Origin: Natrarchaeobius oligotrophus
GTDB lineage: Archaea > Halobacteriota > Halobacteria > Halobacteriales > Natrialbaceae
Reading direction: 5' to 3'
DNA: 64,000 bases
NCBI RefSeq assembly: GCF_003841465.1
Contig: NZ_REFZ01000007.1
Coordinates: 1-64,000, forward strand
In this document: piece after piece, positions 49,620-53,023 of the stretch
Numbering within the stretch: the first letter of the stretch is position 1
How the letters are laid out: the number at the start of each line of letters is the position of its first letter
Translations under genes and position numbers: made by a program
The notes under the pieces: generated by a model
What the model saw: only the letters and a program-made list of their open reading frames with translations
What the model was told of the DNA's origin: nothing
The model's database searches: none

Positions 49620-50153
49620 TCAGTGTTCGGGTTCCTCGGCGGGCGCGATCATGTCGTCGATGCGGAGGATGAGAATGTTGTTGGTGTCGTCTTTTCCGTC
49701 GACGCGTCCCTCGACGACGAGTTTCGACAGCGGCGTCGGACCGACGGTGACCGAGTCGTCCTCGGAGATGTCGCCGATCGTCCCCTGCATGTGGATCTCG
49801 GCCCGACAGAGCTCCGGGTGGTGGACGCTCGAGAGATCGATCTCTTCGACGATGACGTCCTCGACGGGTTCGCCTTCGTGCTCGAGCGGAACCGAGGCGG
49901 GATCGTCCATCTGCTGGATTTCGAGGGCTTCGTAGGCCGCGGCGGTCGGCTTGTAGCCACCTTTCGGGCCGGGTACGCCCTCTACCAGCTGGAGGGCTTT
50001 GAGACTCTGCATCTGGTTACGAATCGTTCCCGGATTGCGGTCGACCTGTTCTGCGATGTCTTCGCCTTTGATCGCGTCCTCGGACTCCTTGTGGAGGTTC
50101 GTCAGGGCGCGAAGGATTTTCTTCTGGCTCGGAGTCAGTTCGATGGATGACAT
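49620..50153 (-). CDS. HTH transcriptional regulator (Rrf2/ArsR-like winged helix)
   Basis: A 177-residue regulator. The N-terminal winged helix (about 1-75) reads SIELTPSQKKILRALTNLHK, then GEDIAEQVDRNPGTIRNQMQ and GPKGGYKPTAAAYEAL. The C-terminal 100 residues are a small-molecule or dimerisation domain (EIHMQGTIGDISEDDSVTVG, NILILRIDDMIAP) with a beta-rich pattern reminiscent of CBS-like folds. It lies convergent to gyrA, and no target is evident. The ATG at 50153 gives the expected start. Confidence 0.82.
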   Translation of the reverse strand: MSSIELTPSQKKILRALTNLHKESEDAIKGEDIAEQVDRNPGTIRNQMQSLKALQLVEGVPGPKGGYKPTAAAYEALEIQQMDDPASVPLEHEGEPVEDVIVEEIDLSSVHHPELCRAEIHMQGTIGDISEDDSVTVGPTPLSKLVVEGRVDGKDDTNNILILRIDDMIAPAEEPEH

Positions 50154-50244: not shown

Positions 50245-51177
50245 CTAAACGGGAACGAGCCAGCCTTCGAGCAGGAGATCGCCGAGGACGTCCTCGAGCA
50301 GGAACATGAGGACGAATCCGTTGGCGAACGCCGCGGCGTTGATTCGCGTCAGCACCGCCTCGGCGTCGAAGCGGATCAGTTCCGCGACCTCGATGAGCAC
50401 CTGCAGGATCGCACCGACGGCGATCGCAAAGAAGAACACGGCGAGCAGGTCCGACTGGGCGAAGCTGCCGATCCACCCGCCCAGGATAACCGGTCCGCCG
50501 GCGATGAGCCCCATCGCGGCGAAGTGATACAGCGGCGGCGTCTCCCTGTCTCTGGCGACGGCGGCGACGACGGTGGGCCCTTCCATCACGTTGTGCAACA
50601 CGAACGCGAGGACGAGCAACATCACCAGCGTCGCATCGCCCTGGACGTAGGCGACGCCGATGCCGAGGCCTTCGCCGATGCTGTGTAGACCGAGCGCGAG
50701 CGCGACGAGGTAGGCGATTTCGAGGCCGCTCTTTTCCGTCGAGGCCATCTTCCGCCCGCGCCACTCGCTCGCGACGTACATGACGGCGAACGTTCCCGCG
50801 ACGCCGACGACGGCGAGCACGACGGCGGCCGACGTGTTTTCGGCCGCACCGGCGTAGTCGGCGATGTCTTCGGTCATCTCGATGGCGATGAACACCAGCA
50901 CGCCGGCCGCCAGCGCGAGAAAGGCGTGGAGGTATCGGGGGTCGAGATCCCGGATGAACGGGAACCAGAGCATCCCGATCGCGACGGGAACGACGCCTGC
51001 GAGCGCGCCGATCACGGTCAGCATCCAGAGAATCTCGAGCGTGCTCGCCTCGTCGACCGACGCGAGATCACCGAACGGCGACGTCAGATACAACAGCCCG
51101 AAGATCGAGAGGAGTATCACCACCGGTCCGAGCGCGAGAACGCTCCTGGGAAGATCGTAGAGAGACCGGCCGCTCAT
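50245..51177 (-). CDS. ZIP-family metal transporter
   Basis: A 310-residue transporter with eight predicted helices. Helix 4 contains ALGLHSIGEGLGIGVAYVQG with the His-x3-Glu metal ligands, and helix 5 contains FVLHNVMEGPTVVA, the second HNxxEG-type motif. These form the binuclear Zn2+/Mn2+/Fe2+ site of ZIPs. The start ATG is at 51177. A TTAGA-N4-TCTAA box lies 50 nt upstream, next to a TATA run (atatatg), the same box found before the DtxR/SirR-type regulator gene, so metal-dependent repression is likely. Confidence 0.92.
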   Translation of the reverse strand: MSGRSLYDLPRSVLALGPVVILLSIFGLLYLTSPFGDLASVDEASTLEILWMLTVIGALAGVVPVAIGMLWFPFIRDLDPRYLHAFLALAAGVLVFIAIEMTEDIADYAGAAENTSAAVVLAVVGVAGTFAVMYVASEWRGRKMASTEKSGLEIAYLVALALGLHSIGEGLGIGVAYVQGDATLVMLLVLAFVLHNVMEGPTVVAAVARDRETPPLYHFAAMGLIAGGPVILGGWIGSFAQSDLLAVFFFAIAVGAILQVLIEVAELIRFDAEAVLTRINAAAFANGFVLMFLLEDVLGDLLLEGWLVPV

Positions 51178-51227
51178 CGGTCCGGCACACCCCCGAGGCT
51201 CTCGAATCGTCGACTCATTACGTATTA

Positions 51228-51241
51228 TTAGACGCCTCTAA
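51228..51241 (-). promoter_or_regulatory. SirR/DtxR-type operator before the ZIP transporter gene
   Basis: TTAGACGCCTCTAA is a TTAGA-N4-TCTAA inverted repeat with perfect 5-bp arms. It sits immediately downstream (in the ZIP gene's direction) of the TATA run atatatgtt. A repressor bound there would block initiation. The identical arms recur at 52018-52031. Confidence 0.72.
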
Positions 51242-51325
51242 ACATATATCTCTTTGGATGATGGAACAGTTCGATCGAATCTAATTCTGGAGGGGGCTGA
51301 TCGTCGCAGTCGCCGGTTTCGTCCC

Positions 51326-52006
51326 CTACTGCTCGAGCTCCGCCGGCTGTGTGACGCGGACGTGACGCGCGACGTCTTCGGGAAGCGAGACGGGGTCGTC
51401 GCGTCCGCTCGCTCTCGCGGTGATCATGCCGAACGGCGCGACCTCGAGAATGTCGAGTTCGACGCCGGGTTCGACGCCGTGGTCGGAGAGATACGAGAGG
51501 ATGTCCGGATCGTGATCGGCGACCTCCTCGACGACGACGACGTCGCCTTCCGTGAACTCCACGACCGACTTGCCGTCCGGGCGTTCCGGCGGCTCGAGGT
51601 CCGCACTCGGGATCGGTGAACCGTGTGGATCGACTTCGGGTTGATCGAGCGCGTCCGCGACTCTGGCCTCGAAGTCCTCGCTGATGTGGTGTTCGAGGCG
51701 ATCCGCTTCCGCGTGGACTTCGGACCAGTCGTAATCGAGGTGTTCGGTGAGATACGCCTCGAGCAGCCGGTGGTGACGGACGATCTCGAGTGCGACGGTC
51801 TCGCCCTCGTCGGTCAGCGTCACCCCGCGGTACTTCTCGCGGTCGATGAGCCCCCGCTCTTCGAGTTTCTCGAGCATACTGGTGACCGTCGGCGACGTGA
51901 CGTCCAGCTCGTCGGCGATCTCGGACGTTTTGATCCGGTCGTCGGTTTCCTGCTGGAGCTGGTAGATCACTTTGAGGTAGTCTTCCATCACGTCGCTCAA
52001 CATCAT
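51326..52006 (-). CDS. DtxR/SirR-family metal-dependent transcriptional regulator
   Basis: A 226-residue repressor. The winged-helix domain (about 1-65) includes LSDVMEDYLKVIYQLQQETD and ELDVTSPTVTSMLEKLEERG. The metal-binding and dimerisation domain (about 66-140) has HHRLLEAYLTEHLDYDWSEV and the His pair in LEHHISEDFE. A C-terminal FeoA/SH3-like domain follows (SVVEFTEGDVVVVEEVADHD, FGMITARASGRDDPV). It should sense Fe2+ or Mn2+ and repress uptake genes. The gene has its own TTAGA-N4-TCTAA box, indicating autoregulation, and the ZIP transporter gene next to it has another. ATG at 52006, with a second ATG immediately following. Confidence 0.93.
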   Translation of the reverse strand: MMLSDVMEDYLKVIYQLQQETDDRIKTSEIADELDVTSPTVTSMLEKLEERGLIDREKYRGVTLTDEGETVALEIVRHHRLLEAYLTEHLDYDWSEVHAEADRLEHHISEDFEARVADALDQPEVDPHGSPIPSADLEPPERPDGKSVVEFTEGDVVVVEEVADHDPDILSYLSDHGVEPGVELDILEVAPFGMITARASGRDDPVSLPEDVARHVRVTQPAELEQ

Positions 52007-52017
52007 CGTACGCGAAT

Positions 52018-52031
52018 TTAGAGCGGTCTAA
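52018..52031 (-). promoter_or_regulatory. SirR/DtxR-type operator before its own regulator gene
   Basis: TTAGAGCGGTCTAA is a perfect TTAGA-N4-TCTAA inverted repeat ending 12 nt before the regulator's ATG. A TATA-like gatttagg lies on its far side, so the site overlaps the start of transcription. Same arms as 51228-51241. Confidence 0.72.
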
Positions 52032-52102
52032 CCCTAAATCTGTCGCCGACCGACGAACGAGTGAGTCGTCACGACAAAGCACCTGGCGGGCGTAGGTCGC
52101 GT

Positions 52103-53023
52103 ATGGATTCGACCGTTCGAATCATCGGCGTGCCGATGGACTACGGAGCCGATCGCCGCGGCGTCGACATGGGCCCGTCGGCGATCCGCTACGGCGGCCT
52201 CGCGAGCGAACTCGAGGACGCGGGCGTCGAACCGGTCGACGCCGGCGATCTGCTCGTCCCTCGAGCCGAAGAGCGCGATCCGGACGCCGATCCGCCGACG
52301 CGCGGAACCGCGAAGTTCCTCCGCGAGATCGAGGACGTCTGTTCGCGCCTCGCCGATCAGGTCGCGGACGCGCTCGCGAACGACGCGTTTCCGCTCGTGC
52401 TGGGCGGCGACCACTCGGTCGCGATCGGGTCGATGAACGGCTCGTCGCGGCAAGCGCAACTCGGCGCGATCTGGTTCGACGCTCACGCCGACCTGAACAC
52501 GCCGGAGACGTCCCCCAGCGGGAACGTTCACGGGATGCCGCTGGGCGCGATCCTCGGCCGGGACGTCTTCGGCGAGATGGGGTGGGCTCACGCGCCGAAC
52601 GTCCGCGAGGACGCGATCGCGTACGTCGGCCTTCGGAGTATCGACGAACGGGAGCGCGATCTCGTACGCGACAGCGAGATGACGGCCTTTACGATGGCCG
52701 ATATCGACGAACGGGGGATGACGGCGGTCGTCGAGGACGCCCTCTCGGTCGCCACGAACGACACCGACGGCGTCCACGTCAGCCTCGACCTCGACTGGCT
52801 CGATCCGACGACGGCCCCCGGCGTCGGCACGCCGGTCCGCGGCGGCGTCACCTACCGGGAGGCTCACTCCGCGCTCGAGACCGTCTCGCGCCGCCACGAG
52901 GAGGAGGGCGCGCTCCGCTCGATGGACGTCGTCGAGGTGAACCCGATCCTCGACGAGCGAAACGAGACGGCGACGCTCGCGGCCGAACTCACCGCCAGCG
53001 CGTTCGGCAAGCGAATTCTGTGA
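52103..53023 (+). CDS. rocF: Arginase
   Basis: A 306-residue ureohydrolase that splits arginine into ornithine and urea. The Mn2+ ligands are all visible: GGDHSVAIGS, IWFDAHADLNTPETSPSGNV, and SLDLDWLDPTTAPGVGTP. The SGNVHGMPL segment is the arginase (rather than agmatinase) signature. MDVVEVNPILD is also conserved. The length equals bacterial arginases. The ATG at 52103 gives the usual start (MDSTVRIIGVPMDYG). No other arginine genes are nearby. Confidence 0.92.
   Translation: MDSTVRIIGVPMDYGADRRGVDMGPSAIRYGGLASELEDAGVEPVDAGDLLVPRAEERDPDADPPTRGTAKFLREIEDVCSRLADQVADALANDAFPLVLGGDHSVAIGSMNGSSRQAQLGAIWFDAHADLNTPETSPSGNVHGMPLGAILGRDVFGEMGWAHAPNVREDAIAYVGLRSIDERERDLVRDSEMTAFTMADIDERGMTAVVEDALSVATNDTDGVHVSLDLDWLDPTTAPGVGTPVRGGVTYREAHSALETVSRRHEEEGALRSMDVVEVNPILDERNETATLAAELTASAFGKRIL

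Follow-up and report, generated by a model that had tools for sequence, protein, structure and literature searches.

A conserved operator pair at the sirR and zip genes of Natrialbaceae and a minicistron predicted to deliver ribosomes to the ZIP transporter gene

The window analysed here, a stretch of 64,000 nucleotides from Natrarchaeobius oligotrophus, a haloarchaeon of the family Natrialbaceae (contig NZ_REFZ01000007.1, positions 1 to 64,000), harbors a gene for a ZIP-fold transporter, zip, and a gene for a DtxR-family metalloregulator, sirR, both read from the reverse strand and each preceded by a palindromic operator, with a short predicted frame lying between the zip operator and zip. 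The features of the locus are the following.

50245-51177, reverse strand: zip, encoding a ZIP-fold transporter of 310 aa
51174-51218, reverse strand: minicistron, a predicted frame of 14 codons, MSRRFESLGGVPDR, whose TGA overlaps the zip ATG as ATGA
51188-51194, reverse strand: Shine-Dalgarno-like (SD-like) element GGGGGTG inside the minicistron, 10 bases ahead of the zip ATG
51228-51241, no strand assigned: operator before zip, TTAGACGCCTCTAA, an exact match, which reads TTAGAGGCGTCTAA along zip
51244-51257, reverse strand: predicted basal promoter of zip, with a BRE-like CCAAAG (51252-51257) and a TATA-like ATATAT (51244-51249), putative in function
51326-52006, reverse strand: sirR, encoding a DtxR-family metalloregulator of 226 aa with a FeoA domain and three Pfam domains above cut-off
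52018-52031, no strand assigned: operator before sirR, TTAGAGCGGTCTAA, an exact match
52032-52038, reverse strand: predicted TATA-like box of sirR, TTTAGGG, present in the consensus of 56 sirR promoters and putative in function
52103-53023, forward strand: divergent arginase gene, a neighbour (TIGR01229 above cut-off)

The arms of the two operators, TTAGA-N4-TCTAA, are identical and 5 bp each, and exact matching confirmed the two palindromes reported in an earlier note on this DNA. That note had also placed each beside a TATA run, which is correct for the zip site, next to ATATAT, but not for the sirR site, which adjoins TTTAGGG. Both operators lie directly 3' of the TATA-like box and end approximately 10 bases ahead of an ATG, which at sirR is the gene's own start codon, an arrangement that fits the leaderless transcript expected in haloarchaea. 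This TATA-operator-ATG geometry is common to zip and sirR and is conserved in 56 sirR promoters (consensus TTTAGGGTTAGACGnnTCTAAA) and 47 ZIP promoters (consensus AAAGnTATAnGTTTAGACnCnTCTAA-n9-AATGA), the conserved columns over the zip basal promoter being AAAGnTATAnGT. Since each operator is flanked by the TATA-like box on one side and the predicted start on the other, its position would be that of a repressor site, at which metal-loaded SirR may block the start region and the assembly of the transcription machinery there.

Both operators are conserved across Natrialbaceae. The best site in 71 non-identical sirR upstream regions had no mismatch in 30, one in 22, and two in 4, and in the other 15 it lay at 3 to 5 mismatches, with none within 2; among control windows of equal width, 0 of 426 held a site at up to 2 mismatches. 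The zip operator, with up to 2 mismatches allowed, is conserved in 47 non-identical ZIP loci and missing from three, and in Natrinema loci the ZIP gene and its operator are both absent while the sirR operator is mostly kept. Beyond the family, among 20 homologues of sirR from elsewhere in the order, 5 have an exact and 2 a one-mismatch site no more than 30 bases from the start, the remaining 13 having no site with at most one mismatch within that distance. The autoregulation proposed earlier is supported at the level of promoter architecture, with the box lying at the start of sirR itself and kept in relatives. The divergent arginase gene occupies the same position in 45 of 72 loci, and arginase is a manganese enzyme; it was considered as a SirR target and set aside, as the interval between the two genes holds no box besides the sirR operator, which lies ~70 bases away from the start of the arginase gene.

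At zip, the ATG following the operator, at +9, opens the 14-codon minicistron, which the earlier reading of this DNA missed. For comparison, 47 loci were retained from 113 sources (44 were dropped for lack of a ZIP gene, 17 as duplicates, 3 for lack of an operator, and 2 for an incomplete ZIP), and an ATG lies at +8 to +13 after the operator in all 47. In 46 of the 47, the frame that it opens reaches its stop codon close to the start of ZIP, as against 0 and 8 for the two shifted frames, with the zip start of each locus set by rule as the first in-frame ATG or GTG at +40 to +130, so that some may be wrong. These loci come from related genomes and are not independent, and with the ZIPs merged at 80% identity, the near stop is found in 24 of 25 clusters. 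An SD-like element, defined by a loose pattern, is found in 45 of the 47 loci. Two other explanations of the interval were examined. That ZIP is extended at its N terminus, starting at the upstream ATG, is ruled out, as that frame is closed by a stop codon within 38 codons in every one of the 47 loci, and a search of Rfam for an RNA element before ZIP returned no match up to an E value of 1.

The distance from the minicistron ATG to zip ranges from 31 to 113 bases, yet in 46 of 47 loci the stop remains fixed at the start of zip, so the minicistron frame itself appears to have been selected, and this layout suggests that translation of ZIP is probably coupled to it, with the minicistron beginning where the predicted leaderless zip transcript begins. 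It is possible, if rather doubtful, that the ATG after the operator is instead a feature of the promoter or start site, the frame remaining untranslated and zip being read from a leadered transcript. Consistent with this, the peptide is not conserved apart from the residues encoded by the SD-like element, and the AATGA of the consensus could reflect a preference of the initiator. However, an untranslated frame fits poorly with a stop held in place over so variable a spacing, and SD motifs in haloarchaeal 5'-UTRs are reported to be inactive (PMC3986360). The predicted coupling of zip has parallels elsewhere. Overlapping gene pairs in Haloferax are described as strictly coupled, and the pairs subject to termination-reinitiation there likewise have an ATGA overlap with an intragenic SD (PMC6728339). 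Leaderless small open reading frames of mycobacteria likewise start at the transcript end and have RTGA overlaps and have been proposed as ribosome deliverers (PMC4633059, PMC12548453). What sets the present case apart from the mycobacterial and Haloferax pairs is the conservation of the minicistron, across many genera, at a single gene that follows a metal operator, with a transcription start and a translation that are both predicted. A search of the literature on leaderless upstream frames and coupling in archaea found no title naming this locus.

The transporter itself is filed as ZIP-like on the basis of its modelled fold. Against Pfam Zip it scores 25.8 bits, under the cut-off of 35.1, and of 19 homologues that were aligned, the protein itself among them, 18 match that family at E values up to 0.01. 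The AlphaFold model has a mean pLDDT of 83, and ranks 1 to 10 of a Foldseek search of the PDB are all BbZIP chains (E values of 1e-6 to 3e-5), with a TM score of up to 0.79 on the target, although identity to BbZIP is ~22%. The two central metal-site helices carry the motifs HSIGE and HNVME, and a scan of 18 homologues found both HSIGE and HN[VI][ML]E in 17, with the first motif alone in the remaining one. The fold match, the homologues that match Zip, and these His/Glu motifs all support the identification as a ZIP transporter made from the sequence at the outset. Two loci of one genus (L142, L143) have mere short ZIP fragments beside sirR, which suggests decay of ZIP in that genus, and Natronorubrum bangense has near-identical sirR/ZIP loci on a chromosome record and a plasmid record (L034, L079).

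The assignment of the regulator to the DtxR/SirR group is likewise upheld, both by its three Pfam domains, the N-terminal winged helix (PF01325, 72.5 bits against a cut-off of 26), the metal-binding and dimerisation domain (PF02742, 98.5 against 27), and the C-terminal FeoA/SH3-like domain of the SirR/IdeR subtype (PF04023, 47.2 against 23), and by its solved relatives DR2539, SloR, and IdeR. Comparative genomics has reportedly been used by Leyn and Rodionov (2015) to describe the regulons of this same protein family, DtxR, in Archaea. In alignment with IdeR, SirR keeps His79, Glu83, His98, Glu105, and His106, but it has Asp9 where IdeR has Met10 and Asp102 where IdeR has Cys102, and both Asp residues are present in 72 of 72 SirR homologues. 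Met10 and Cys102 are described as marking the Fe site and Asp8 and Glu99 the Mn site (PMC4805248), and the acidic residues of SirR at both positions point to a Mn-type primary site. SirR was not filed as an MntR equivalog, as its best NCBIfam model of that kind, NF047407, scores 207.6 bits against a cut-off of 350. Position 102 is Asp, whereas MntR has Glu there.

The best solved match to SirR is DR2539 (MntR) of Deinococcus radiodurans (5zr4, E value of 4e-43), which shares with it the FeoA/SH3 domain, an Asp at the Met10 position, and a Lys at the position of MntR Glu11, but has Glu where SirR has Asp102. DR2539 is reported to respond to both Mn(II) and Fe(II), and its reported target is mntH, as opposed to ZIP here (PMC3327659). 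A review presents SirR of Halobacterium sp. NRC-1, likewise of the DtxR family, as an autorepressor that depends on Mn(II) and acts on Mn uptake genes, its reported targets being the ABC genes zurM/zurA/ycdH, whereas the adjacent target here is a ZIP gene with a minicistron (PMC3600143), and deletion of Halobacterium sirR has been linked to Mn and iron homeostasis and to peroxide stress (PMC5605881). Given the Asp residues, DR2539, and the reports on Halobacterium SirR, we favour Mn(II), or a dual response to Mn and Fe, over Fe(II) alone as the metal sensed by SirR, Mn sensing being argued by homology.

The same genome encodes a second DtxR-type protein (G000:C1:60444-60797; L193), adjoining a gene that appears by eye to be ferritin/Dps-like, which makes it a candidate iron regulator. 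That Fe(II) is the main metal of SirR, in the manner of DtxR/IdeR and of haloarchaeal Idr, with ZIP serving iron uptake, seems to us unlikely. The DtxR-family domains and the five conserved His and Glu residues would accommodate it, DR2539 answers to Fe(II) as well, and Haloferax SirR has been listed among possible regulators of iron homeostasis (PMC11349517). Against it, the two residues of the Fe site are replaced by Asp in every homologue, the SirR and TroR proteins of Haloferax are reported to stay unchanged under iron starvation, and the neighbour of the ferritin/Dps-like gene is the likelier iron regulator. Still less probable is binding of the boxes by that second protein, which has an Fe_dep_repr_C domain, or by the winged-helix regulator beside zip (49620-50153), whose gene is retained downstream in 53 of 72 loci, as the motif tracks sirR and, in other families of the order included, lies directly at its start, the pattern expected of an autoregulator. 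Autoregulation by SirR is well supported on these sequence grounds, as is the SirR/ZIP circuit as a whole.

The box is also specific. The exact motif occurs twice in the window, at the two operators, with none of 100 dinucleotide shuffles yielding any, and a scan of the whole genome (4,614,480 bases), a check proposed in the earlier note, returned the same two sites and none in a backward-read control, so the motif is not frequent at unrelated promoters, which the note had named as a refuting outcome. Given these counts and the conservation of both footprints, an origin of the palindromes by chance, conceivable as each arm is merely 5 bp, was dropped as exceedingly improbable. Sites with one mismatch number 9 more in the genome, compared with 30 in the backward control, and across 101 genomes of the family there are 202 exact sites against 53 in the control. 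Among the 75 of these 202 that were listed, 20 lie before sirR, 7 before ZIP, 19 before ArsP_2, and 14 before ZnuA genes, and 15 before none of these, so that 60 of the 75 matches listed are at metal genes (sirR, ZIP, ZnuA, and 10TM ArsP_2), although the ZnuA and ArsP_2 queries were chosen post hoc from five loci, four of them among the 75, which makes the classes partly a matter of construction, and 2 of the 60 sites are >200 bp from the gene (L126, L130). Four of the 15 unclassed sites precede a multicopper-oxidase-like gene (L121 by Pfam; L169, L182, and L187 by similar N-termini), and the genomes concerned have a ZIP paralogue of ~45% identity within a few kb.

In the source genome itself, a site with one mismatch, TTAGACGAGCCTAA (G000:C4:191240-191253; L113, L192), stands 52 bp ahead of a gene of the znuA type. 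This gene heads an ABC-transporter operon that continues with genes for an ABC ATPase and a membrane protein, the latter two identified by eye from their translations. With this site, and with the motif at ArsP_2 and ZnuA genes of relatives, the description of the circuit as self-contained is not supported, and the earlier interpretation, mostly right about the circuit, is to this extent only partly supported. In promoters of ArsP_2 genes the box is found at the predicted start or below it, but at ZnuA genes it precedes a TATA-like stretch, and with this difference in position, its effect at ZnuA may differ.

The distribution of ZIP and ArsP_2 suggests that the two replace one another. Of the 101 genomes, 56 have ZIP and 40 ArsP_2, with 8 having both and 13 neither (Fisher p of 5e-9, which is overstated, as related genomes are not independent), presence being defined by E values below 1e-100 and 1e-140, respectively, cut-offs chosen after viewing the lists, which leave out one ArsP_2 genome (G019) and the weaker paralogues of ZIP. 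In a single genus (g27), ZIP alone is present in four genomes and ArsP_2 alone in three. A search for ArsP_2 in the source genome found none, while as a control the query matched in 41 of the 101 genomes. The box precedes 10TM ArsP_2 genes labelled as arsenic efflux or heavy-metal exporter genes at L124, L128, L136, L144, L145, L147, and other loci. This largely mutual exclusion appears to fit poorly with the exporter label of ArsP_2, although it might also have arisen by common descent together with loss of genes. Given this exclusion across genomes while both genes keep the box, we tentatively raise the possibility that in Natrialbaceae the SirR box controls either of two unrelated metal importers able to stand in for each other, the minicistron-led ZIP or ArsP_2, in which case ArsP_2 would serve uptake of Mn, or of Mn and Fe, in haloarchaea. 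A literature search under the ArsP_2 family names found no title assigning a metal-uptake role.

Building on the sites, their specificity and conservation, and the layout of the minicistron, we consider a metal-uptake switch with a minicistron as ribosome loader to be quite probably the best explanation of the locus, in which the binding of SirR, the metal sensed, the direction in which the genes are controlled, the transcription start, and the translational coupling are predicted elements. SirR, expected to act as a dimer, would bind TTAGA-N4-TCTAA when loaded with metal, most likely Mn(II) and perhaps also Fe(II), and at both operators would block assembly of the transcription machinery at zip and sirR. 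When metal is scarce, SirR would release the DNA, ZIP would be made, and metal would be taken up, upon which SirR would be refilled and both genes shut off again. The zip transcript is predicted to start at the AUG of the minicistron, whose leaderless end ribosomes would enter, terminating at its stop and reinitiating on zip with the aid of the internal SD-like element, so that the minicistron would load ribosomes for zip.

At its core, the circuit is an autoregulated metal switch of the usual kind, with the precise box now serving to predict its regulon. A locus in which a conserved, predicted leaderless minicistron precedes a gene with an SD-like element would allow termination-reinitiation to be tested cleanly, and in a natural setting, as a means of delivering ribosomes in archaea. 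The way in which ZIP and ArsP_2 largely exclude each other behind a shared box suggests that proteins whose family name denotes export may import metal.
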